Of a stretch of 51,622 nt of DNA, positions 1,666 to 42,436 are shown piece by piece. The position numbers and the translations under genes were made by a program. Every line of letters begins with the position of its first letter. Positions within the stretch are counted from its first letter, which is position 1. The notes beneath the pieces are model-generated. The model was given only the letters and a program-made list of their open reading frames with translations. It did not search any database and was not told the origin of the DNA. Origin of the DNA: Gluconobacter oxydans (lineage in GTDB: Bacteria; Pseudomonadota; Alphaproteobacteria; Acetobacterales; Acetobacteraceae); assembly GCF_006539685.1 (NCBI RefSeq), contig NZ_BJNM01000019.1, positions 1-51,622 on the forward strand. The letters are read 5' to 3'.

Positions 1666-1735
1666 GGGAGGGCGCTCCGTTCGGTGTCAGGTTTTTCAGC
1701 GTGTCAGGGTGTAAGAGTCCGGGAGCGTTCAGGTT

Positions 1736-1753
1736 TCACGGAATTCTCTGTGA
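1736..1753. promoter_or_regulatory. Imperfect inverted repeat in a divergent intergenic region
   Basis: TCACGGA (1736-1742) and TCTGTGA (1747-1753) form an inverted repeat with one mismatch around ATTC. It lies between the divergent paoA and MFS genes, where an operator serving either direction would be expected. No promoter elements could be fixed with confidence, and the repeat is short enough to occur by chance. Confidence 0.25.
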
Positions 1754-1919
1754 TCCCGGTCATAAAATGCGTGCTGATAATAAACATCCCGCAGATACGG
1801 GCCTGACCGCGCAGGATCCGTCTTTTCAGAACAGAAAAACCCTTACTGTTTTTTGTAACGGACCCGTGACCCGGCCGTTCAGTACGGGGGACGACTGCGA
1901 AAAGACTTTGACGGGAATT

Positions 1920-3146
1920 ATGGTGACGAAAAACAAAGCACAGATCCGGCCCCGGAGGGATGACGTTTCCCTGGACGGTCTGAGCTTCCTTCTTGCGGAT
2001 GTTCAGGACAATCTGGGGAACTTCCTGACAGCCTTCCTGACCACACAGGGCTGGCCTTCAAGCCGGATTGGCGCGGCGATTGCAGCGGGTGGACTTGGGG
2101 CGGTTCTGGCCCGGTTCATCGGCGGGTGGGTTCTGGATATCTTTCCGCGCCGGCGCCTGATGCTCGCTGTATGCTGTGCCGTGACGTTCCTGTCTGTGGC
2201 GGTGATGGCCTGGGCACCGCTGTTTTATCCCATTGTTCTGGCGCATTTCATTGCGGGCGGCGCAGGAGCCCTCTTTACGCCCATTCTTGCGGCCATCAGC
2301 CATCATACGGCGGGGACCAGAGGCTATATCGCGCGTATGGGCCGCAATGAATCCTTCAATCATCTGGGCAATGCATCGTCCGGTTTCGTGATGAGTCTTC
2401 TTGGCAGGATGATGGGACCTGTTGCGCCCCTGTGGGGTGTGGGCGGCCTTGCGGCCGTCAGTCTGCTGCTGGTCGGGGGCTTTTCGAAACGTGCGGACGT
2501 CCCTTCCGAACAGTCGCGGGATGCTGCCTCGCTGCAGCAGACACTGCAGGCCATCTGCACACTCCTTTCCGAAGCGCGGCTGGCCGTTTTTCTGGCGACC
2601 TATCTGCTCTTCAATGTTGCCAATGGCGCCGTGGTCCCGCTCATGATCGAGCGTTATGCCTTTTTCCATCTTGGCGATCCGGCAAGCGTGACGGCCATCT
2701 GCATCGTGGTGGCCCAGATCACCATGGCGCCTGTGGCCCTGCTCGTGGGCAAGAAGGCGCCGCAATGGCCACGCAAGCCGCTGTTCGTGTTCGCACTCGC
2801 CCTGCAACCCCTGCGGGACGGTCTCGTCATCCTGAGCGCGGACTGGCCGACGCTGGTTCTGGTCCAGATCCTTGACGGCTTGTCTTCAGGCATCATTCTG
2901 GTGCTGTTCTATGCCATCCTTTCGGACATCGCTTCCGGTAGCGGACGGCGTAATCTGCTGATTGGGCTGGGGCTGGCGCTGGGAACGATCGGGGCGCTGC
3001 TGTCCAATCTTGCAGGGGGGGCGCTGGCGTCGGGCTATGGGTTCAATACGACGTTCGTGGTTCTGGGGCTGACAGGGGCAGCTGTGGCCTGTCTGTTTGC
3101 GTGGGGGATGCCGGAGACGCATTCACCGGTCGCTGAGGGGGCATGA
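1920..3146 (+). CDS. MFS transporter
   Basis: From the ATG at 1920 this is a 408-residue integral membrane protein with about a dozen hydrophobic segments, typical of the major facilitator superfamily. The first loop region has FIGGWVLDIFPRRRLML, an MFS motif-A-like stretch between helices 2 and 3. The open frame extends upstream to 1701, but those extra 73 residues are hydrophilic, unlike any transporter N-terminus, and would cover the intergenic promoter region, so the 1920 start (MVTKNKAQIRPRRDD) is preferred. The substrate cannot be inferred. The gene is divergent from the aldehyde oxidoreductase and stands alone, with about 125 bases before the next gene. Confidence 0.85.
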   Translation: MVTKNKAQIRPRRDDVSLDGLSFLLADVQDNLGNFLTAFLTTQGWPSSRIGAAIAAGGLGAVLARFIGGWVLDIFPRRRLMLAVCCAVTFLSVAVMAWAPLFYPIVLAHFIAGGAGALFTPILAAISHHTAGTRGYIARMGRNESFNHLGNASSGFVMSLLGRMMGPVAPLWGVGGLAAVSLLLVGGFSKRADVPSEQSRDAASLQQTLQAICTLLSEARLAVFLATYLLFNVANGAVVPLMIERYAFFHLGDPASVTAICIVVAQITMAPVALLVGKKAPQWPRKPLFVFALALQPLRDGLVILSADWPTLVLVQILDGLSSGIILVLFYAILSDIASGSGRRNLLIGLGLALGTIGALLSNLAGGALASGYGFNTTFVVLGLTGAAVACLFAWGMPETHSPVAEGA

Positions 3147-3271
3147 CAGGACGGAGGATGGGCGCCAGCTCCATTCCCGCAGAATAGTGACCGGCGCTGC
3201 GATTTTAATCGGGATCCCTGCCTGACTTACAGACGTTGCCCAGAACGGGCTGCGTGGAAGGGTCACAGGGC

Positions 3272-4408
3272 ATGTTGAATTCTGGTCATGAAATGACGGA
3301 GGGGGAAGGGTCTGCCTTTCGGACCAGACTGAAGCATCTGTTCGCGGACTGGAAAGTCAGGCCCTTCACGCCAGCAGAAAATCTGTTCCCGTCAGACCTC
3401 CTGAAATCCCTGCGACAGATCGGGGCGCTGGATGCCCTTCTTTCTGTTGAGGAAGGTGGGCTGGGACTGGCCTCCCCACGTGACGGGGGGCGGCTTCTGT
3501 CGCTGCTTCTGCGGCGGACGGGTTATTTGAGCCTGTCTCTGGGACGGTGTCTTGAAGGGCATGTGAATGTTGTCCGTCTTGTAGCGCTGTATGGCACGCC
3601 AGAGCAGCGTTATAGCCTGGCCACCACGCTGAAAAACGGGGTTCTGGCCGGGATATGGGTTACGGATGGCGAGCCATCTGTGAGGCTGCGAAAGGATGGC
3701 GAAACATACAGGCTTTCTGGGATCAAGGGATTTGCCAGCGGTGTCAGTGAGGTTGGTCTTGCGCTGATCACTGCAACGACCGAGCAGGAAGAGTCGGTCA
3801 TGCTCCTCGTGCCGACCACGGATCCCGCTCGCAGGCGGCCAGGACCGGGCAAGCTGACCGGGATGCAGGCAAGTGGCACGGGAGCCTATGATTTTAGCGG
3901 TCTGACGGTTTCTGCTCAGGATATTCTGGGGTCTGCGGGGGATTATCTGCGACAGCCTGAGTTTTCTGCGGGAGCTTGGCGCGGATCGGCTGTTGCGCTG
4001 GGCGCTGTAGATCGGCTGGTTGATCTGCTGAGGGAAGAACTGCTGGCCCGCAAGCGGGCTGACAACCCGCATCAGCTCTGCCGGATCGGAGAGGCCATGA
4101 TTCTTCAGAAGACAGCCTCCCTGTGGGTCGAGCAGGCTGCTCAGGCGGCGGGTGACTGTCCGGGCCTGTCCCCCGAGGAGGTTACGGCGACTGTCAATCT
4201 GGCGCGGCTGGCCGTTGAACGCGCGGCCCTGGAACTGATCACGCTGGTGCAGCGGGGTCTGGGCCTTTCGGCTTTTGTAAAAGGGCGGGCGGTCGAGCAG
4301 GTCATGCGGGATCTGGCGACTTATCTGCGACAGCCCGCTCCGGACGAGGCCCTGACAGAAGGCGCGGCATGGTTTGTCAGACATGACTGGCCAGAGGGTG
4401 GCTTATGA
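3272..4408 (+). CDS. Acyl-CoA dehydrogenase-like flavoprotein of a PIG-L/methyltransferase/glycosyltransferase cluster
   Basis: About 378 residues from the ATG at 3272 (an ATG at 3293 is also possible; the TTG at 3236 is less likely). The length and the all-alpha/beta-barrel/all-alpha layout match the acyl-CoA dehydrogenase superfamily: an N-terminal helical part, a central segment with GIWVTDGEP and LSGIKGFASG, and a C-terminal helical part. The C-terminus has LATYLRQPAPDE, and I see no YEGT-type segment holding the general-base glutamate of true acyl-CoA dehydrogenases. Either the reaction differs (oxygenase or other flavin chemistry) or the base lies elsewhere. It overlaps the PIG-L gene by ATGA, so the two are translationally coupled. 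No acyl-CoA metabolism genes are nearby. The substrate is unknown. Confidence 0.75.
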   Translation: MLNSGHEMTEGEGSAFRTRLKHLFADWKVRPFTPAENLFPSDLLKSLRQIGALDALLSVEEGGLGLASPRDGGRLLSLLLRRTGYLSLSLGRCLEGHVNVVRLVALYGTPEQRYSLATTLKNGVLAGIWVTDGEPSVRLRKDGETYRLSGIKGFASGVSEVGLALITATTEQEESVMLLVPTTDPARRRPGPGKLTGMQASGTGAYDFSGLTVSAQDILGSAGDYLRQPEFSAGAWRGSAVALGAVDRLVDLLREELLARKRADNPHQLCRIGEAMILQKTASLWVEQAAQAAGDCPGLSPEEVTATVNLARLAVERAALELITLVQRGLGLSAFVKGRAVEQVMRDLATYLRQPAPDEALTEGAAWFVRHDWPEGGL

Positions 4409-5136
4409 AAGTCCGGGATATGCTTCAACATTTTGCAGAGTTTCCGGTTGCGCCCCTTGAGACGATTGCCCCTGGAACCGCGCTTATTCTTTCCCCGCAT
4501 CCGGATGATGAAAGTCTGGGATGTGGGGGATTTATTGCCTCTGCGGTGAGGGAGGGGCATCCGCCGCTGGTTGTGATCGTTTCTGACGGTTCCGCGTCCC
4601 ATCCTGGTTCAGTGACATGGCCGCCTGCGCGGATTGCGCGGCTTCGTCAGGAGGAAAGCCGGGACGCGGCGGCAGTGCTCGGCCTTCCTTCCGAGCGGCT
4701 GCTGTTTCTGGAATTGCAGGATGCAGGTGTTCCAACATACGGCGACAGTTTCGATGCCGTCATCCGTCATCTTGCGGAAATGATCGGTCGCTATGGGTGT
4801 CAGACGGTTCTGGTCCCCTGGCGGTATGATCCGCACTGCGATCACGAGGCTGTCTGGATGATGGGGCAAAAGCTGAAGGCGCTGCTGCCGTATCTGCGGC
4901 TTCTGTCGTACCCTGTCTGGGGGCTGACGCTGCCACCTGAAATGGAACTTGATGAGGCCACCCCGGCAGGCTGGCGGCTTGATATCCGGCCGTTTCTGGA
5001 CAGGAAACGGGATGCCATTGAGGCACATCGAAGCCAGAGGGGGCTGGTCGTAGATGATGATGCGGGCGGCTTTGTTCTTCCCGAACATCTGCTGGAGAAA
5101 ATGCTTCAGCCCTATGAAATCTTCATCGCGTCATGA
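4405..5136 (+). CDS. PIG-L (LmbE-like) family zinc deacetylase
   Basis: This 243-residue protein has the two metal-binding motifs of the PIG-L/LmbE fold: SPHPDDESLGCGG near residue 30 and DPHCDHEA near residue 150. In this family the His-Asp-Asp and His residues bind zinc, and the enzyme removes an N-acetyl group from an N-acetylglucosamine-type or related sugar conjugate (GlcNAc-PI, mycothiol and BshB pathways). There is no signal peptide, so it is cytoplasmic. The start codon overlaps the previous stop (ATGA), and the stop overlaps the methyltransferase start in the same way. With the neighbouring glycosyltransferase this suggests a glycosylate-then-deacetylate sequence on an unknown acceptor. 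It is not MshB or BshB by context. Confidence 0.87.
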   Translation: MKVRDMLQHFAEFPVAPLETIAPGTALILSPHPDDESLGCGGFIASAVREGHPPLVVIVSDGSASHPGSVTWPPARIARLRQEESRDAAAVLGLPSERLLFLELQDAGVPTYGDSFDAVIRHLAEMIGRYGCQTVLVPWRYDPHCDHEAVWMMGQKLKALLPYLRLLSYPVWGLTLPPEMELDEATPAGWRLDIRPFLDRKRDAIEAHRSQRGLVVDDDAGGFVLPEHLLEKMLQPYEIFIAS

Positions 5137-5765
5137 GTGCGGGGACATGGAAACCGGAGGTCTTTGAACGCCTCTTTCAGGATAATCCCGACCCATGGGG
5201 CTTTGAAAGCAGTCCGTATGAGCGCCAGAAACTGTCTCGGGTTCTGGAATCTCTTCCGGCCTCGCCCATTTTCTTTGCGGTGGAACTCGGATGTGCGATC
5301 GGCGTCGGTACTCTGGCGCTGGCGCAGCATTGCGGGCGTGTTCTGGCGGTCGATGCGTCGGAAAATGCTCTGGCGATTGCAGGACGGCGGTGTGAGGGGC
5401 AGGAGCATGTCAGCTTTCTGAAAGCCTTCCTGCCTTCAGATTATCCTGCGGCAGACGCTTCGGGCTGTGATCTCGTTCTGATCTCCGAGCTGCTTTATTT
5501 TCTGACGCCACAAGACATCCGCAGTCTTGCGGGGATGGTCATGGAGAGTCTCAAATCCAACGGCCATATCCTGATCGTCAACTGGACCGGACAGACGGAT
5601 ACGCCCTGCACCGGGAGTGAAGCGGCCGAATATTTTATCCGGGCCTGCCATGAAAGACACTGGGTTCCGGACCTGTCAGAACAGGGGGAGGGATATCGTA
5701 TTGACCGGCTGTCCCGATCGGGAAATTCTCCATTGAGCGGCGGTTTATCTGACGAAGGCGCTTGA
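5133..5765 (+). CDS. NodS-like SAM-dependent methyltransferase
   Basis: This 210-residue class I methyltransferase has the SAM-binding motif I as AVELGCAIGVGTLALAQ, with an acidic residue at the end of strand 2 (VLAVDASENAL). The layout resembles NodS, the N-methyltransferase that acts on de-N-acetylated chitooligosaccharide in rhizobia. That fits its position straight after a deacetylase: the freed amine could be the methyl acceptor (inference). Its start overlaps the PIG-L stop by ATGA. The 3' end runs 131 bases into the end of the convergent glycosyltransferase gene. Similarity typical of the family seems to end near GYRIDRLSR, so the last ~15 residues may be dispensable. Confidence 0.82.
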   Translation: MSAGTWKPEVFERLFQDNPDPWGFESSPYERQKLSRVLESLPASPIFFAVELGCAIGVGTLALAQHCGRVLAVDASENALAIAGRRCEGQEHVSFLKAFLPSDYPAADASGCDLVLISELLYFLTPQDIRSLAGMVMESLKSNGHILIVNWTGQTDTPCTGSEAAEYFIRACHERHWVPDLSEQGEGYRIDRLSRSGNSPLSGGLSDEGA

Positions 5766-6756
5766 GAACCCGTAAGGCCCGTTCATGATGTTGGGGCAGT
5801 TCCTTCCTGCGGATGCAGACCACAGGAAAGTCCGGATAGGGGATATCGAGGAAAGAAGACTGGCTCTGCCAGTACGCGAGTTCTCTGCGGATGCGCAGCA
5901 GGCGCCGGGAGACGGGTTCGAAGGCATCGTCAATATATTCGTCCTGGGCGATCAGGCGCCGCGCCAGAGTTTCCGCCATTCCACCGCGAGCACGCCCCTG
6001 AAGGCGCGCCGAGACATAGACCTGCACCTGGGGCGCATGACGAACCGCAATGCCGTTCTGTCGCAGGGCCCTGGCGAATGCCCGGTCTTCTCCGGAAGGC
6101 ACGTCCGGAATGCCCCCCACCCTGCGCCAGGCCGCATGGGTTACGGCGATACTGGCGCCTGAATGTTCCAGATGCCGTGGCCACGGGTCATGGGGTTCGG
6201 AGCTCAGCAGAAGCCCGATCTGCTCCAGAAGCGCGCCATAGGCCCGTTCGGATTGTTCATCTTCGTGCAGATGAAGCGGAATCTTCCTGTATTCTTCAGG
6301 CAGGAGCAGGACCCGCCCGAAAACCGCTTCCACAGGATACTGGATAAAGGCTGCAAGAATGCTGTCGATCCAGTCAGTGGCGACTTCGCTGTCGGCGTCC
6401 GTGGTCAGGAGGATCGCATCAGGAGATGCAGTTCTGGCGGCATGAGCCATGGCGTCGCGGCGCGCCTGTCCGGCACTCGCAATGGCCGGGGGATAGCAGG
6501 CCGTGACCGTTTCCAGTTCAAACGGAAGCCTGTGGGCTACAGAGAGAACCCGATCACAGGTCTCGTCCGTCGTATTGTTGATCCACAGAACGACCCTGTC
6601 CGGAAGGGACGTTTGCGCTGCCAGGGCGAGGAGACAGGCGACGATGTGGTCTTCCTCATTGCATACGGGGATCGCCACAATTCTCGGTTTTTTCCAGAAC
6701 AGAGCCTCTTTGCCCTGCGATGCGGAAGCTGTGTCTTCCGTTCGTGCATGGGCCAT
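5635..6756 (-). CDS. Family 2 glycosyltransferase
   Basis: A 373-residue cytoplasmic glycosyltransferase with a GT-A fold. The nucleotide-sugar-binding start is RIVAIPVCNEEDHIVACLLA after about 25 residues. The metal-binding D-x-D is LLTTDADSEVATDW, and an acceptor-side acidic region follows (GGIPDVPSGEDRAFARALR). There are no transmembrane segments. It is transcribed towards the ACAD/PIG-L/methyltransferase genes and overlaps the last one by 131 bases, so it is not in their operon but is probably part of the same system. The last ~40 residues, rich in proline and glycine, lie over the methyltransferase gene and may not be structured. Confidence 0.82.
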   Translation of the reverse strand: MAHARTEDTASASQGKEALFWKKPRIVAIPVCNEEDHIVACLLALAAQTSLPDRVVLWINNTTDETCDRVLSVAHRLPFELETVTACYPPAIASAGQARRDAMAHAARTASPDAILLTTDADSEVATDWIDSILAAFIQYPVEAVFGRVLLLPEEYRKIPLHLHEDEQSERAYGALLEQIGLLLSSEPHDPWPRHLEHSGASIAVTHAAWRRVGGIPDVPSGEDRAFARALRQNGIAVRHAPQVQVYVSARLQGRARGGMAETLARRLIAQDEYIDDAFEPVSRRLLRIRRELAYWQSQSSFLDIPYPDFPVVCIRRKELPQHHERALRVLKRLRQINRRSMENFPIGTAGQYDIPPPVLTGPEPSVFHGRPG

Positions 6757-6864
6757 TCTCAGATGCTCACCATAAATAATGGAGCAAGCACAGACTGAGC
6801 CCGGTTACGCGGGTTTTCAGGAGCATCAGGGAAAGTGCGGTCTGGAAAAGGCATGAGCGCCTCC

Positions 6865-6883
6865 ATTGAGGAGACAACTCAAT
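6865..6883 (+). promoter_or_regulatory. Inverted repeat over the ribosome binding site of a small ORF
   Basis: ATTGAG (6865-6870) and CTCAAT (6878-6883) form a perfect 6-base inverted repeat around GAGACAA. The Shine-Dalgarno GAGGAG (6868-6873) is partly in the left arm, and the right arm includes the first two bases of the ATG at 6882. Such a hairpin could hide the start site in the transcript. The stem is short and its role is inferred. Confidence 0.35.
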
Positions 6884-6965
6884 GGCTGAGAACAACCAGA
6901 GTTCAGATCACTTAAAAAAGACACCGCTGTATCCGCGCCTGAACGCAGAAGGTCAGCGTCTGTAG
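6882..6965 (+). CDS. Probable small protein of 27 residues
   Basis: The ATG at 6882 opens 27 codons ending in TAG, coding for a polar, charged peptide that starts MAENNQSSDHLKKTPLYPRL. It has a strong GAGGAG Shine-Dalgarno with 8 bases of spacing, which is the main evidence. It sits in the otherwise empty region between the glycosyltransferase and tRNA-Glu. Right after the stop, GGTCTCAGGAGACC (6967-6980) can form a small hairpin without a T tract. There is no hydrophobic segment. The LKKTPLY stretch loosely recalls the start of the glycine-cleavage T protein, but nothing beyond it matches. Function unknown; it could be non-coding. Confidence 0.4.
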   Translation: MAENNQSSDHLKKTPLYPRLNAEGQRL

Positions 6966-7022
6966 CGGTCTCAGGAGACCATTACCTGACATGGCGGAAA
7001 AGCTGTTTTTGGCTGAAAGCCG

Positions 7023-7098
7023 TGGCGTCCCGTACGGGATTCGAACCCGTGTTGCCGCCGTGAAAGGGCGGTGTCCTAGGCCTCTAGACGAACGGGAC
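7023..7098 (-). tRNA. tRNA-Glu (anticodon UUC)
   Basis: The reverse complement from 7098 to 7026 folds as a cloverleaf. The acceptor GTCCCGT pairs with ACGGGAC, the anticodon stem-loop CCGCCCTTTCACGGCGG presents UUC, and the T arm is ACGGGTTCGAATCCCGT. The CCA end is encoded (7025-7023). It lies 41 bases downstream of the recJ stop on the same strand. Confidence 0.97.
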
Positions 7099-7139
7099 TG
7101 GAGGCGTGAGCGGGTGTATAGGGGTGGCTCCTGCGTCCG

Positions 7140-8939
7140 TCAAGCGGGGGCAGCGTCAGAAATGAAAAAAGACAGATTTTTTCTCTCCTGCCATGTCTCG
7201 GCCCGTAATGTGCCTGCGACATGGACCAGTGGCATGGAGCGGTCTTCCAGCAGGGCGGCGAAGGGTTTGTCGGCTGCACGGAAGACCAGGCCACGCAGGC
7301 GTGTGCCTCCGTCCTCGCCTTGCAGGATGACGCGCAGGGTGTTGCCATCCTTGCCGATACGCTCGCTTTTGACGCAGCGGACATTGCTGATGGCGAGGAC
7401 CGGTTCCTCGTTGCCGGGGCCGAAAGGTTCCAGCCGGGCGAGCTGGTCCGCCACCGCGACTGAGGCGCCGGCCAGAGTCATGATGCCGTCGAGCTTCAGG
7501 GCGTCCTGTTTGGGGAGGGTGAGGGCGCCGGAAAGCTGACTGTCGAGCCAGCTGTGGAACTCGTCGGCACGATCGGCCGAAAGCGAGAAGCCGGCAGCCA
7601 TGGCGTGCCCGCCGCCGCTGAGCAGCAGGCCGTTCTGGCGGGCTGCGATGATGGCGGTCCCGAGGTCCAGTCCCGGAACGGAGCGGGCCGAGCCTTTGAT
7701 GACGCCATCCGTCAGGGCGGCGACGAGGGCAGGGCGGTTGTAGCGCTCTTTCAGGCGGCCTGCGACGATGCCGACGACGCCGGGGTGCCATGTTTCACCG
7801 TGCAGGAAGATGACGGCGTGGCCCGCATCGAGCTGCTGCTGTGCCTGTTCCATGGCGGAATCGAGGATTGTGGATTCGACGGTCTGGCGCTGGCGGTTGA
7901 CGCGGTCGAGCTGTTCGGCGAGGGCGCGGGCTTCCACGACATCATCCGACAGTAGGAGTTTCAGACCCAGATCGGCCTGTGCGATGCGGCCACCGGCATT
8001 GATGCGGGGGCCGAGGGCGAAGCCGCAGGCCATGGCGCTGGCTTCTTCCTTTACGCCTGCAACGGAGGAGAGCGTGGCCAGCCCGAGGCGCTCGCCGCGG
8101 GACATGACGCGCAGACCTTGCATGACCAAGGCGCGGTTTAGGCCGGTCAGGGGCATGACGTCGCAGATGGTCGCCAGCGCCGTGAGGTCGAGGCGTTTGA
8201 GCAGGTCGGGAATGACCTGATCTTCATCGAACCAGTTACAGCGGCGCAGGTGGCGGATCGTGGCGACCATGGTGAGGAAGGCGACGGCGGTGGCGCAGAT
8301 GCTGCCCAGACCGGAGGTGCAGTCCAGACGGTTCGGATTGACTACGATGCCTTTCGGCAGGGCCGCGCCGTCGGGTTTGTGGTGATCGAGCACGATGATA
8401 TCGGCGCGGTCGGTTAGGCCGTTGAGGATATCGATCGCTGCCGTGCCGCAGTCGATGCAGACCAGAAGGGTGGCGCCTTGGGAAAGCAGGTTTTCAAGGG
8501 CTGCGGTATTGGGGCCGTAGCCTTCGGTCAGGCGGTCGGGAATGTGGGTGCTGACGGTGCAGCCCAGTTCGCGCAGTGTGTCGCAGACGAGGGCAGTTCC
8601 GCAGGCGCCGTCCACGTCGTAGTCGCCGAACAGGCCAACATGCTCGCGGTTGCGCACAGCCTGGGCGAGGCGTTCGGCGGCCCGGTCCATGTCCTGCAGA
8701 CAGGACGGGTCAGGCATGGCGTCGCGCAGACGGGGATTGAGAAAGGAGGAGGCGTCGGGTGGGGCGACGCCGCGTGCCGAGAGGATACGGGCCAGAAGTT
8801 CGGGAATACCGGCCTGCTGGGCCAGGGCGAGTGCCAAGCGGTTGTCTGCTTCCGCCAGGCGGGGATCGCGCCAGATCCAGCGGCGGTGTCCTGCACTTCG
8901 GGTTACGCCGAGGACGGCACCCGTATCGTCTGCGAGCAT
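7140..8939 (-). CDS. recJ: Single-stranded-DNA-specific exonuclease RecJ
   Basis: This 599-residue protein has the expected RecJ length. It is a 5'-3' single-strand DNA exonuclease of the DHH phosphoesterase superfamily, acting in recombination and mismatch repair. The metal-binding motifs are visible: HVGLFGDYDVDGACGTALV (motif I, DYDVDG), LLVCIDCGT, IIVLDHHKPDG (the DHH signature), and the DHHA1-domain glycine motif LLSGGGHAMAAGFSL. The C-terminal OB-type domain follows. It starts 10 bases after the glpX stop and is the last protein gene before tRNA-Glu in a run of co-oriented genes (aminotransferase, hom, glpX, recJ). Confidence 0.96.
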   Translation of the reverse strand: MLADDTGAVLGVTRSAGHRRWIWRDPRLAEADNRLALALAQQAGIPELLARILSARGVAPPDASSFLNPRLRDAMPDPSCLQDMDRAAERLAQAVRNREHVGLFGDYDVDGACGTALVCDTLRELGCTVSTHIPDRLTEGYGPNTAALENLLSQGATLLVCIDCGTAAIDILNGLTDRADIIVLDHHKPDGAALPKGIVVNPNRLDCTSGLGSICATAVAFLTMVATIRHLRRCNWFDEDQVIPDLLKRLDLTALATICDVMPLTGLNRALVMQGLRVMSRGERLGLATLSSVAGVKEEASAMACGFALGPRINAGGRIAQADLGLKLLLSDDVVEARALAEQLDRVNRQRQTVESTILDSAMEQAQQQLDAGHAVIFLHGETWHPGVVGIVAGRLKERYNRPALVAALTDGVIKGSARSVPGLDLGTAIIAARQNGLLLSGGGHAMAAGFSLSADRADEFHSWLDSQLSGALTLPKQDALKLDGIMTLAGASVAVADQLARLEPFGPGNEEPVLAISNVRCVKSERIGKDGNTLRVILQGEDGGTRLRGLVFRAADKPFAALLEDRSMPLVHVAGTLRAETWQERKNLSFFISDAAPA

Positions 8940-37704: not shown

Positions 37705-38060
37705 ATATTCTGGTCGTTGATGATTCCCGAACCATGCGGGACCTGGTCAGTCGAGAGCTGCGTAAAGACGGTTATGAGGTGGAAACTTCGGAAGACGGCG
37801 TTGAAGCGCTGGAAAAAATTTCCGATTTTCTGCCGGCAGTCATCATAACAGATCTGAACATGCCGCGTATGGATGGGCTGCAACTGACCAGAGCCCTGCG
37901 CGCGCGGTCAGATACAAAATACGTCCCCATCATTTTTCTGACGACGGAATCCGGTGACGATCTTCGTCGTGCCGCACGTGAAGCAGGTGCGACCGGGTGG
38001 ATCGTCAAACCGTTCGATGGTCCCAGGCTGCTTGCAGCGGTGAGGCGTGTCAGCGCATGA
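37701..38060 (+). CDS. cheY1: Chemotaxis response regulator CheY1
   Basis: A 119-residue single-domain receiver: acidic pair ILVVDDSRTMRD, phosphorylated Asp in IITDLNMPRMDG, threonine switch IIFLTTESG and lysine WIVKPFDG. It stands between the cheS-like gene and cheA, as in rhizobia where CheY1 serves as a phosphate sink for CheA. Which of the two CheY proteins here drives the motor is not shown by sequence; the rhizobial analogy favours CheY2. It overlaps both neighbours by 4 bases. Confidence 0.9.
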   Translation: MNILVVDDSRTMRDLVSRELRKDGYEVETSEDGVEALEKISDFLPAVIITDLNMPRMDGLQLTRALRARSDTKYVPIIFLTTESGDDLRRAAREAGATGWIVKPFDGPRLLAAVRRVSA

Positions 38061-40105
38061 GCACTGAAGATTTCACCGATGATATGGACGCGATCCGACT
38101 GATTTTCTTTGATGAATGCGACGAGCAACTCACGCTTCTGGAAGAAGAGCTGACGGCGCTTGAGGACGAGCCGGAAAATGGAGAGAAGATCAACACGATC
38201 TTCCGGTGCGTTCACTCCATCAAGGGCGGAGCGGCCGCCTTTGGCATGGAAGATCTGGTAAGATTCTCCCATCTTTTCGAGAGCGTGCTTGACCGTTTCC
38301 GGTCAGGAGAACTGTCCGTAAATGCTGAGAGCATCAGGGTTTTTCTCAAGTGCAAGGATGCGCTGTCGGATATTGTTTCAGACTTTAAAAATGGGGGCAG
38401 CACTTATGAGGTTGCTCCGGAGATAACTGCCGACCTGGAGCACTATCTCGGGTCTGATGCTTCGGAACCGGAGCCGGCCTCTGAAGAGGTCAGGACGGAA
38501 GATATCTTCGGCATGTCTTTTGCGCCGGTGAAAATTGAAATTGATGCGCCCAGTGAGCAGCAGTTTTCAATTGTTCTGACTGTATCCCCGGAGTTTTATG
38601 AGCGCGGAGATGACATCCGGAATATCCTGATGGCATTGGAAGGTCTGGGGCAGATTAAGGTACAGGTTGATAGTGATGCTGTGCCACTTCTTGCCGATAT
38701 TTCACCGGGCCAGAGTTATCTGACGTGGCAAATTCTGCTGACAACAGAAAAGTCACGAGAGAGCATTGATGAGATTTTTGACTGGTGTGGCGATGATCTG
38801 CAGGCGGTCATTACATCCGTGCCGGAAGAAGCTGAACAAACCAAAATACCATCTGCTCCGGTTGCAGAAGAGAAAACGGATCCACCGGTCCGAAAAGGAA
38901 CCGAGCGAAAGGACTCTGCGACCGTTCGGGTTGATATCCAGCGGATCGACAAACTGGTCGATCTGATTGGAGAACTGGTGATCAACCAGGGGGCTATTCA
39001 ATCCCAGATGCGTCGTAACAAGGTGCCGGGAGATTCATTTCTGGGGAGTGTGGTCACAGCGCAGGAGCAGCTTATCCACGAACTGCAGGAAAACGTCATT
39101 ACGATGCGCGCCTATCCGATCAAGACGGTCTTCCAGAAGCTGGGGCGTGTTGTGCGGGAGACGGCCAGACTGACAGAAAAGCAGGTTCGGCTTGTTCTGG
39201 AAGGAGAGGACACAGAGGTTGATCGGTCCATTCTTGAAAAGCTCTCCGATCCTCTGACCCACATGGTTCGCAATGCCATTGATCACGGCATTGAAAGTCC
39301 AGAGGTCAGGGCGCAGGCGGGAAAGGATCCTGAGGGTCTGCTCCGACTGCGTGCCTTTCAACGCTCTGGTCGGATCATCGTGGAAATTCAGGATGACGGG
39401 GCCGGTCTGGACCCGGACAGGATCTACGAAAAAGCTGTTGAAAAGAAGATTATTGAAAAGGGTCAAAGGCTGGATCGGGAAGAAATCTATTCTCTGATTT
39501 TCGAGCCGGGGTTTTCGACTGTTGCAGAAGTGACCGATGTCTCAGGCCGGGGCGTGGGAATGGACGTTGTTAAACAGAGTCTTCAGCAGATCAACGGACG
39601 GATTTTCATCAGTTCATCGAAGGGAAAAGGAACTATATTTTCCATTTCTCTGCCTTTTACCCTCTCCGTTATCGAAGGCATTATCTTCAAGTCGGAAGGA
39701 CAGGATTTTGTCGTTCCGATCAATAATGTTTCGGATACAATAATATTCGATAATAGTAAGGCGTTTCATATTGGAGAAGGAAAATATGGATACCCTTATC
39801 GGGATGGTTATCTGTCCGTAATTTATGCTTCAGACCTTTTGGACGTTCCTTCTGATAAGAAAAATCAGAAAATATGCTTCGTTATCGAAAATGAAAACGA
39901 AGAAAAAATGGCATTCATTGTAGATAAGATTATTGATCAATCGAGGTTCGTGGTGAAAAATCTCGAAGATAATTATCGAAAAATTGCCTGCTTCTCGACT
40001 GCGACCATTCTGGGCGATGGCAACGTAGCATTTATTCTGGATGTGGAATTTCTCTTTGGTGAGCTTTTGAAGAAAAGAGAAAGTTCATTGGAGGAAAGAG
40101 TATGA
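38057..40105 (+). CDS. cheA: Chemotaxis histidine kinase CheA
   Basis: 682 residues from the ATG overlapping the cheY1 stop. Domains in order are: Hpt with phospho-His53 (FRCVHSIKGGAAAFG); a CheY-binding region around residues 165-265; dimerisation helices (IDKLVDLIGELVINQGAIQS); the ATPase domain with the N box HMVRNAIDHGIESPE, G1 IQDDGAGLDPDRI and G2 DVSGRGVGMDVV; then a CheW-like regulatory domain to the end. All kinase motifs are intact. The last ~150 codons are strikingly AT-rich compared with the rest of the window. It overlaps cheW by ATGA. Confidence 0.97.
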   Translation: MSTEDFTDDMDAIRLIFFDECDEQLTLLEEELTALEDEPENGEKINTIFRCVHSIKGGAAAFGMEDLVRFSHLFESVLDRFRSGELSVNAESIRVFLKCKDALSDIVSDFKNGGSTYEVAPEITADLEHYLGSDASEPEPASEEVRTEDIFGMSFAPVKIEIDAPSEQQFSIVLTVSPEFYERGDDIRNILMALEGLGQIKVQVDSDAVPLLADISPGQSYLTWQILLTTEKSRESIDEIFDWCGDDLQAVITSVPEEAEQTKIPSAPVAEEKTDPPVRKGTERKDSATVRVDIQRIDKLVDLIGELVINQGAIQSQMRRNKVPGDSFLGSVVTAQEQLIHELQENVITMRAYPIKTVFQKLGRVVRETARLTEKQVRLVLEGEDTEVDRSILEKLSDPLTHMVRNAIDHGIESPEVRAQAGKDPEGLLRLRAFQRSGRIIVEIQDDGAGLDPDRIYEKAVEKKIIEKGQRLDREEIYSLIFEPGFSTVAEVTDVSGRGVGMDVVKQSLQQINGRIFISSSKGKGTIFSISLPFTLSVIEGIIFKSEGQDFVVPINNVSDTIIFDNSKAFHIGEGKYGYPYRDGYLSVIYASDLLDVPSDKKNQKICFVIENENEEKMAFIVDKIIDQSRFVVKNLEDNYRKIACFSTATILGDGNVAFILDVEFLFGELLKKRESSLEERV

Positions 40106-40530
40106 TTGGGGAAAAAGCGCTGGTCTTTTCTTTGGGAAATCAGGAATTTTCCATCCCGATTTCGGCTGTCAAGGAAATCAAGACTTGGTCAAAAGCAACG
40201 CCTTTCCCGGCGGCACCGGCGTTTGTTGAAGGCGTGGTGAATGTTCGGGGATCCGTAATTCCACTCGTGGATATGGCCCGGATGATGGGCGTTTCTGAGA
40301 ACAGTAATGAGAAGAAAGCTATTATTTTTCTGAAAAACAAAGACAAGGTTATCGGGTTCTCCGTTTCAAATGTGACAGATATTTCGGATTTGGATGAGGA
40401 GGAATTCAAGCCTCTTCCTGAATTGTCCAGCGATGATCTCAAATATTTTCTGAATGGAATCCAGCCTGTAGCAGATCGTCTGATATTCTCTGTGAATGTA
40501 GACGCGCTGTTTGAGGGGAGTCTGCAATGA
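40102..40530 (+). CDS. cheW: Chemotaxis coupling protein CheW
   Basis: A 142-residue CheW that bridges receptor and CheA. It shows the CheW-fold pattern VFSLGNQEFSIPISAVKEIK, PAFVEGVVNVRGSVIPLVDM with the conserved glycine-valine-asparagine-leucine-like loop, and a C-terminal DRLIFSVNVDALF. Base composition is AT-rich like the 3' part of cheA. It overlaps cheR by 4 bases. Confidence 0.96.
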   Translation: MIGEKALVFSLGNQEFSIPISAVKEIKTWSKATPFPAAPAFVEGVVNVRGSVIPLVDMARMMGVSENSNEKKAIIFLKNKDKVIGFSVSNVTDISDLDEEEFKPLPELSSDDLKYFLNGIQPVADRLIFSVNVDALFEGSLQ

Positions 40531-41384
40531 CAGCGATCCCTGTGCTGGAAACAGACGGAATTTCTGATGGAAATTTCCGGATTATCGCTGGAATTGCCAA
40601 GAGTTACGCTGGAATTTCTCTGTCAGAAAAGAAAAAGAGCCTCGTCTATTCCAGAATTTGCCGCCGTGTCCGGCAGGAAGGGTTTGGCTGTTTCGACGAG
40701 TATTGTGCCTTCCTGATGAGCGAAGCAGGTTCTGACGAACGTCAGCATCTCGTTTCGGCGTTGACAACAAATGTCACCAGTTTTTATCGGGAAAAACACC
40801 ACTTTTCATACTTGGAATCCCTGCTTCGTCAGCAGTTATATGGTCGTTTTGAACGCGGAGAAGAACTCAGGATCTGGTCTGCGGCCTGTTCGAGTGGCGA
40901 GGAAGCATATTCGATCGCCATGACAGTCATAAAATGTCTGTCCACCATTCCGCATCTGAAAGCGAAAATTCTGGCAACAGATATAGATTCCGATGTTCTG
41001 CAGCAGGCTCGCCTGGGGAGCTATGCTTCCATAGAAGCCGAGGCTCTTTTTGAAGACGGAGTGCTGACGTCCTGTCGGCTTGAAGACGACCGGGTCGTCA
41101 TGTCTGAAAAAATCCGGGAGATGATCCGTTTCCGACGCCTCAATCTGGTTGAACCCTGGCCATTTTCATCCTGTTTCCATGCCATTTTCTGCCGGAATGT
41201 CGCGATCTATTTTGATCGCGAAACGCAGGACCGGTTATGGGGTAACCTTTCTGCGCGTATTTTCCCGGGGGGAGAGCTTTATCTGGGGCACTCGGAGCGT
41301 ATAGCTCATCCTGAGCGGTTTGGAATGGAAAGCTTCGGGCATAATGCCTATCGCAAGGTTTCGTCTGGCAGGAGGCGCTCTTGA
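40527..41384 (+). CDS. cheR: Chemotaxis protein methyltransferase CheR
   Basis: A 285-residue SAM-dependent methyltransferase that methylates glutamates of receptors. The motifs are LTTNVTSFYREKHHF, the SAM site LRIWSAACSSGEEAYSIAM, ILATDIDSDVLQQAR, FHAIFCRNVAIYFD and ELYLGHSERI. The first 60 codons remain AT-rich, then composition returns to normal. It overlaps cheB by TTGA. Confidence 0.96.
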   Translation: MTAIPVLETDGISDGNFRIIAGIAKSYAGISLSEKKKSLVYSRICRRVRQEGFGCFDEYCAFLMSEAGSDERQHLVSALTTNVTSFYREKHHFSYLESLLRQQLYGRFERGEELRIWSAACSSGEEAYSIAMTVIKCLSTIPHLKAKILATDIDSDVLQQARLGSYASIEAEALFEDGVLTSCRLEDDRVVMSEKIREMIRFRRLNLVEPWPFSSCFHAIFCRNVAIYFDRETQDRLWGNLSARIFPGGELYLGHSERIAHPERFGMESFGHNAYRKVSSGRRRS

Positions 41385-42436
41385 GTGGCGCAAGACCCCT
41401 GACTGTCGTGGTCGTCGATGATTCCCTGACGACCCGCGCCCTGATCGCGGCCGCACTTCGGCGGGATCCCAGAGTAAAGATCGTGGGGACTGCCGGAACG
41501 CCCTTTGAAGCGCGTGATCTTATCGTGCGGCTGAATCCGGATGTGCTGACGCTCGATTTCGAGATGCCGTCCATGAATGGTCTGCAGTTTCTTGAAAAGA
41601 TTATGAGGTTGCGGCCGATGCCCGTCGTGATGGTGTCGGGTCATCTTTCCAGTCACCGGGGACTGGTTGAGCAGTCGCTCCGGATGGGAGCTGCGGAATG
41701 GTATTCGAAAACGACCACGGCTAACGGCGAGGATCCGTTTGCAGGGCTGGGAGATGCGATTGTCCGGGCTGCGGCCATGAAGCAGCAGGCTCCTGTGCCG
41801 GTTGCTACAGATTCTGCAAACAGGACTGTTCCGAAGATAGGCACTGTCGTCGGGATTGGGGCATCGACAGGGGGCGTGGAAGCCTTAACGGATGTTCTGG
41901 GGCATTTCCCCGTGGCCTGTCCGCCAACGGTTATCGTGCAGCACATGCCGCGGCAGTTTTCAGAAAGCTTCGCACGTCGTCTGGACCGGATCGTGAAGCC
42001 GGAAGTCAGGCTTGCGGAAGAGGGCGATATGCTGAAACCCGGCACGGTGTATGTCGCGTCTGGTGGAGAGCGCCATCTGCGCGTCCGCTGTGGCGCTCGG
42101 TCTGGAGAATATGTCTGCCAGCTGGTTGCGGCCCCACCCGTTAACGGACATCGCCCTTCGGTGGATGAGCTGTTTTATTCCCTCGCCACCACAGTCGGGA
42201 AAAATGCTGTGGGGGTCATTCTGACGGGGATGGAATGTGACGGGGCGCAGGGTCTGCTGGCCATGCGTCATGCCGGCGCCTCCACAATCGGTCAGGACCG
42301 GGCGAGTTCCGTCATCTATGGCATGCCCCGAGCCGCATACGAACTGGGCGCTGTCGAGACGCAGCTTCCACTTTCCGCCATTGGCCCAGCCATTCTCAAT
42401 CTTTGTGAACGTCGCTCTCTGGAGACATATCCATGA
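41381..42436 (+). CDS. cheB: Chemotaxis methylesterase CheB
   Basis: A 351-residue two-domain enzyme that removes receptor methyl groups. The receiver domain (residues 1-~125) has VVVVDDSLTTRALI and LTLDFEMPSMNGLQF with the phospho-Asp. The esterase domain has IGASTGGVEAL with the active Ser, VIVQHMPRQFSESF with His, and ILTGMECDGAQGLLAM with Asp. It starts at a TTG in the stop overlap with cheR, an unusual but coupled start, and it overlaps cheY2 by 4 bases. Confidence 0.95.
   Translation: MSGARPLTVVVVDDSLTTRALIAAALRRDPRVKIVGTAGTPFEARDLIVRLNPDVLTLDFEMPSMNGLQFLEKIMRLRPMPVVMVSGHLSSHRGLVEQSLRMGAAEWYSKTTTANGEDPFAGLGDAIVRAAAMKQQAPVPVATDSANRTVPKIGTVVGIGASTGGVEALTDVLGHFPVACPPTVIVQHMPRQFSESFARRLDRIVKPEVRLAEEGDMLKPGTVYVASGGERHLRVRCGARSGEYVCQLVAAPPVNGHRPSVDELFYSLATTVGKNAVGVILTGMECDGAQGLLAMRHAGASTIGQDRASSVIYGMPRAAYELGAVETQLPLSAIGPAILNLCERRSLETYP

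Follow-up and report, generated by a model that had tools for sequence, protein, structure and literature searches.

A widespread set of four genes in Gluconobacter oxydans as a candidate pathway for an amino-sugar glycoconjugate

Do four adjoining enzyme genes of Gluconobacter oxydans serve a single pathway, and what might such a pathway produce? The genes encode a flavoprotein of the acyl-CoA dehydrogenase (ACAD) fold, a PIG-L/LmbE deacetylase, a NodS-like S-adenosylmethionine (SAM) methyltransferase and a family 2 glycosyltransferase (GT2). They lie in a stretch of 51,622 nucleotides (contig NZ_BJNM01000019.1, hereafter the window) of a 2.7 Mb genome, and a first-pass annotation had read them as one joint, uncharacterised system. 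We report here that the four genes are one inherited unit, which is widespread. They make up a real and apparently uncharacterised pathway, a variant of the known kind that combines a glycosyltransferase, a deacetylase and a methyltransferase, with a flavoprotein in addition.

The inheritance of the set was followed with hidden Markov models (HMMs) of the families, which were built on loci L031-L088, the phylum loci L119-L150 having been added later; the bit thresholds of the phylum profile were chosen after the scores had been seen. In a phylum sample of 398 genomes, the flavoprotein family was present in 34 (at least 165.8 bits, other ACADs scoring at most 102.5 bits), and the methyltransferase family was also present in 34 (at least 149 bits, the next match being at 135). 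Both were found together in 33 of the 35 genomes containing either. The exceptions were G474, with the methyltransferase only, and G425, with the flavoprotein only; in the latter, the frames are shortened in mid-contig, no methyltransferase or glycosyltransferase match was obtained, and the copy has probably decayed. A PIG-L match of 122 bits or more was obtained for 32 of the 34 flavoprotein-bearing genomes, versus 3 of the 364 others. The Fisher p values for co-occurrence were 6e-46 and 2e-41, relatedness being ignored and the thresholds being post hoc.

The same conclusion was reached when the loci themselves were considered. Within 6 kb and at a score of at least 100 bits, 32 phylum loci contained PIG-L in 27 cases, the methyltransferase in 31, the GT2 in 25 and all four genes in 23, versus none of the other three genes in eight control loci centred on the next-best ACADs (a contig end cuts three of these eight). 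Three of the four genes were present in five of the nine remaining loci, and two in the other four. These glycosyltransferase counts refer to the family HMM, and loci with another GT2 nearby (L121, L148) were counted as lacking it. In an order sample of 150 genomes, the flavoprotein matched with at least 100 bits in 47, and remnants were seen in one more (G118). These 48 genomes supplied 40 order loci, the other eight being the window, six matching L031-L040, and G108 (short L030). PIG-L was present in 36 of the 40, the methyltransferase in 39, the GT2 in 37 and all four in 34, a count that takes in the broken genes of L070 and L071.

Where a gene was missing from its place, a family member was in several cases found elsewhere in the genome, both for PIG-L (G299, G177 and, at a distance of 12 kb, G286) and for the GT2 (G012, G138, G299, G177, G419). 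A divergent PIG-L copy is in place in G403, and no PIG-L match at an E value of 1e-15 was obtained in G018, G010 and G131, which belong to one genus, or in G468. In addition, the pairwise divergences of the families were correlated, with r at 0.87-0.95 for 78 loci (71 in the case of the glycosyltransferase), a figure to which shared host ancestry also contributes. The calculation left out L070, L071 and L151, as well as loci in which the flavoprotein, PIG-L or the methyltransferase fell short of 100 bits.

Plasmid records extend this distribution. All four genes are listed in 12 of 14 annotated plasmid stretches, with complete sets in Sulfitobacter, Bradyrhizobium, Sphingomonas, Komagataeibacter, Paracoccus, Novosphingobium, Jiella, Sphingobium, Roseivivax and Deinococcus (L180, L181, L185), and they were also detected by profile on an unannotated Nostoc plasmid (L084). 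The annotation of D. radiodurans L081 shows no glycosyltransferase and another gene ahead of the methyltransferase; that of Pandoraea L088 shows three genes, with the glycosyltransferase in pieces. Taken with the phylum profile and the complete loci, these records bear out the first-pass view of a joint system recurring beyond close relatives; the co-occurrence is not confined to the latter. Gene order is not fixed, since the GT2 gene can be convergent, as in the window, upstream, between PIG-L and the methyltransferase (L048, L079) or downstream, and in G536 PIG-L and the methyltransferase share one open frame. Decayed copies were also seen: L071:6564-10966, where the flavoprotein gene is in two pieces 3.3 kb apart, L070 with frame-broken genes, L080 with remnants only, and L136 with shortened frames and no methyltransferase.

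The flavoprotein gene (3272..4408, + strand) encodes 378 residues from the ATG at 3272, a TTG at 3236 being another possible start (ORF 3236-4408). Its Pfam matches were weak and under the cut-offs (PF02770, 18.8 of 33.3 bits; PF02771, 16.7 of 22.9). In the column of the Y/LEGT-loop glutamate of acyl-CoA dehydrogenases, Glu was found in seven of nine ordinary ACAD controls versus none of 86 aligned family members, which carried Pro (56), Ser (20), Ala (8), Thr (1) or Cys (1) instead; L070, L071 and L136 were left out of these counts. Conversely, Arg353-Gln354 (numbered from 3272) was present in 86 of 86 family members and in none of the nine controls, and Glu95 in 85 of 86 and again none. Because the loop Glu is absent and the Arg-Gln pair is invariant, the protein is, as judged by its residues, a member of a distinct family and not an ordinary, canonical acyl-CoA dehydrogenase. 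Replacement of the catalytic Glu by this Arg was considered and rejected, as the Glu column comes just after the invariant pair. An alternative catalytic Glu in helix G is of the isovaleryl-CoA dehydrogenase type; columns 235-237 of the family alignment were without Glu, no isovaleryl-type enzyme having been aligned to fix the helix-G column.

An active-site His and Ser are a feature of ACAD-fold flavin monooxygenases such as DszC and KijD3. The family has both residues, His97 and Ser156, yet most of the ordinary ACAD controls share them, and the pair was therefore rejected as proof of a DszC-like monooxygenase. When the PDB was searched with the family profile, DszC, TdsC and MsuC led the matches. 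KijD3, ORF36 and DnmZ, which are amino-sugar N-oxygenases, ranked lower (E 5e-19 to 3e-16), among ordinary dehydrogenases. The structural model (pLDDT 76, 11 close sequences) adopted a full ACAD fold, for which monooxygenases and dehydrogenases tied as structural matches. The ACAD-like assignment of the first-pass annotation was thus recovered in the fold, but a function as acyl-CoA dehydrogenase does not fit, and it is very likely that this family, annotated as acyl-CoA dehydrogenase in public records, does something else.

For the other three proteins, active-site residues were complete, in keeping with the activities predicted for them from their sequences (L070, L071, L136 and L083 were left out of the residue counts). 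The PIG-L protein (4405..5136, + strand, 243 residues) matched PF02585 with 87 bits (cut-off 28.2) and was the sole match to this family in the source genome. His32, Asp34, Asp35 and His147 of its PHPDDE...DH motif were conserved in 77 of 77 sequences; His32, Asp35 and His147 are presumably the metal ligands, and Asp34 the catalytic base. In the PDB profile search, the best match was 3wl4 (unnamed) and the best named one was diacetylchitobiose deacetylase, ahead of BshB, glycopeptide deacetylases and MshB. Two PIG-L genes are present in the clusters of L129, L131, L132 and L135, which come from other phylum members, and the matched GT2 frame has just 222-230 residues in L129, L132 and L135.

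The methyltransferase (5133..5765, + strand, 210 residues) has an N-terminal DPW-YE-K signature and matched Methyltransf_25 with 44 bits and the NodS family PF05401 with 38.3 bits (cut-off 24). Eleven signature and SAM-loop residues were kept in 80-84 of 85 sequences. Its profile was nearest to 4isc (167 bits, E 3e-48, positions 28-191), a PDB entry named just 'Methyltransferase', and then to NodS (3ofj, E 8e-29), its nearest relative of known function. An anti-phage role was rejected, the sole such match being mad2 to the methyltransferase (45 bits), which was taken as generic. The glycosyltransferase (5635..6756, - strand, 373 residues) matched Glycos_transf_2 with 43 bits and contains DxD (TTDAD) and ED motifs; in the family, DxD was found in 75 of 75 sequences and ED in 73, the other two having gaps. 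The model (pLDDT 71, residues 345-373 being of low confidence) resembled GT-A enzymes loosely, with PcManGT first (TM 0.43), followed among others by chondroitin polymerase and TarS; as this resemblance is loose, the sugar donor cannot be read from it.

We give about an even chance to a dedicated four-enzyme pathway in the cytosol that would build and tailor an amino-sugar glycoconjugate. The GT2 would attach an N-acetylated hexosamine to an acceptor, the likeliest sugar being GlcNAc with UDP-GlcNAc as donor; the zinc-dependent PIG-L enzyme would strip the acetyl group from the transferred sugar; and the NodS-like enzyme would methylate the freed amine, N-methylation being assumed rather than O-methylation. 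The flavoprotein, devoid of the dehydrogenase base, would then use reduced flavin to oxidise the product, a monooxygenase reaction being the most likely. This order is suggested by the gene content. That the first three steps belong together is supported by fusions found elsewhere. In three genomes, proteins of about 1000 residues combine a GT2 with a methyltransferase of the NodS type and a CE4 deacetylase of the NodB type, amid other glycosyltransferase matches (L159:5373-8381, + strand; L160:5950-9054, - strand; L161:5531-8731, - strand), and one of these genomes (G475) also holds the set. A frame of 620 residues joins GT2 and PIG-L in L165 (6291-8150, + strand), whose genome lacks the flavoprotein family. 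By analogy with the single polypeptides, the joint action proposed by the first-pass annotation for the three activities appears plausible.

The known pathways that most resemble the set differ from it in part. Nod factor tailoring by NodC, NodB and NodS likewise employs a glycosyltransferase, an N-deacetylase and a NodS-type methyltransferase. However, NodB has the CE4 fold, in place of which the set has PIG-L, the set adds a flavoprotein, and its methyltransferase scored 56.3 bits against the NodS equivalog NF041650, far under the cut-off of 300; the sequences thus lend no support to a link with Nod factors. NodA gave no match in the source genome, a weak negative, since 14 control genomes also gave none. 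In the mycothiol and bacillithiol pathways (MshA/MshB, BshA/BshB), a glycosyltransferase acts before a PIG-L deacetylase and the product is cytosolic, as proposed here; MshA and BshA, however, are of family GT4 versus GT2 in the set, and a cysteine ligase follows there in place of the methyltransferase and flavoprotein. Against the NCBIfam equivalog of BshB1, the PIG-L protein reached 55.9 bits, under the cut-off of 182.5. KijD3, ORF36 and DnmZ, whose substrates are nucleotide sugars and whose genes belong to antibiotic clusters, are ACAD-fold flavoproteins like that of the set, from which they differ by its invariant Arg-Gln and its glycosyltransferase, PIG-L and methyltransferase context. 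DszC, TdsC and MsuC, flavin monooxygenases of sulfur compounds, are 18-19% identical to the flavoprotein, and their gene context is unrelated.

No paper on the four-gene set was found in a literature search in which most subscription journals were out of reach. DnpA is a PIG-L protein of 473 residues in a lipopolysaccharide cluster (PMC6048251), a context different from that of the set, and the LmbE family has been reviewed (PMC4101496). A biosynthetic module present, by its flavoprotein family, in 34 of 398 phylum genomes and on Deinococcus and Nostoc plasmids is therefore without a described product in the literature searched, and its gene content yields testable chemistry.

The four enzymes could also form a joint pathway to a glycolipid of the membrane or a glycan of the cell surface, in which the GT2 would add the sugar to a lipid, or to a glycan linked to one, and the remaining three would tailor that sugar; we regard this as possible but rather doubtful. 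In the sphingomonad loci L177 and L179, a GT4 and two more glycosyltransferases belong to the same gene run as the set, the GT4-type cluster also being present in L083, L123, L124, L125, L126 and L128, and in D. gobiensis the set is followed by a glycosyltransferase and a UDP-galactopyranose mutase. The Deinococcus flavoprotein, moreover, is fused to an N-terminal domain of about 420 residues (L081:5660-6925, L181:5576-6835, L185:6980-9229), annotated in other records as beta-glucosidase or GT4, some of them beside UDP-galactopyranose mutase genes. This domain had no Pfam match in L081 and was rejected as a fused glycosyltransferase, as no such profile matched above noise; its association with the set is weak (it was found in 12 of 398 genomes, of which four are among the 34 set-bearing ones), and it had no match in the source genome. 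Membrane work is, however, not favoured by the four window proteins, which are without a clear membrane span (peak 19-residue hydropathy 1.1-1.5, versus 2.35 in the MFS control; the value of 2.04 at residues 46-64 of the methyltransferase is the SAM-binding motif), nor by the major facilitator superfamily (MFS) gene at 1701-3146, which is found ahead of the set in the window and in only six other loci, all close to it. We prefer a product in the cytosol or at the membrane face; its export is conceivable, given the MFS gene and an ABC-ATPase cluster touching 11 of 91 loci. As for the last step, the flavoprotein might instead dehydrogenate an unusual non-thioester substrate, for instance a sugar amine or an acceptor side chain. 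Its fold, the dehydrogenases among the top structural matches and the lack of a listed flavin reductase in 14 annotated neighbourhoods (one match lies elsewhere in the source genome) agree with this, but with the loop Glu missing from the whole family and monooxygenases as the first five profile matches, we judge it unlikely. That the genes have separate roles and merely travel together, as on a mobile stress island, seems very improbable: the set is found on plasmids, it is patchy (8 of 16 genomes of the same genus) and stress genes adjoin it in some loci, but co-occurrence across the phylum sample is near-complete despite the shifting gene order, PIG-L and methyltransferase can be fused, and split loci retain members elsewhere in the genome.

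The neighbours suggest that the product of the preferred cytosolic pathway may help cells to survive stress. Single-linkage clustering of neighbours over 91 loci, with no background loci compared, placed catalase beside the set in eight, the DNA ligase D (LigD) of L083 in nine and Ku in seven; many of the top clusters were set aside as apparent antisense shadow ORFs. Catalase lies in the same strand run in L177 and L179 and is also found in L082; L083 has Ku/LigD, L088 has CsbD, and L182 has both a universal stress protein and a manganese catalase. Upstream of the flavoprotein and glycosyltransferase genes, motifs of general-stress (EcfG-type) promoters were counted 5 times versus 0.7 expected in the strict form and 15 versus 3.6 in the relaxed form, in rows that are not independent (L048/L079 alike, L073/L074 alike); the first control shuffled single bases and the second used the density in the loci. 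No such motif was found at 2901-3400 of the window, the region upstream of its GT2 gene being outside the scan. It is conceivable, if improbable, that the flavoprotein oxidises the nitrogen of an N-methylated amino-sugar conjugate and that the resulting sugar hydroxylamine or nitrone, a stress metabolite of a new kind, acts inside the cell as a redox buffer or radical trap. Such a product would explain the recurrence beside catalase and Ku/LigD and the presence in Deinococcus and Nostoc, both known for tolerance to radiation and drying. The flanks of L139 and L145 contain genes of the alpha-amylase and 4-alpha-glucanotransferase types (glycogen or trehalose metabolism).

In the window, the ORF listing and a reading of the junctions confirmed the gene layout of the first-pass annotation. 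Stop and start codons overlap as ATGA between flavoprotein and PIG-L (4405..4408, + strand) and between PIG-L and methyltransferase (5133..5136, + strand), and the GT2 gene converges on the latter with a 3'-end overlap of 131 nt (5635..5765), its stop lying inside the methyltransferase gene. As convergent overlaps of 92-131 nt recur in all ten loci L031-L040, this is no sequencing slip. A promoter and terminator scan of 2900-7200 gave 1 versus 0.8 and 6 versus 3.3 in shuffled sequences, nothing being clearly above. The window PIG-L is nearest to Gluconobacter loci, with 90-91% identity to L037 and L040. Beyond the MFS gene, the same flank holds a pair of molybdenum-enzyme subunits, FAD and 2Fe-2S (155-1665), which adjoins the set in six close loci and in L133; the other flank holds tRNA-Glu and recJ, the latter being found beside the set in none of the other loci searched. 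Elsewhere, positions 38001-42000 resemble acquired DNA in their lower G+C content, 0.49-0.52 versus about 0.57-0.67 for the remaining window.

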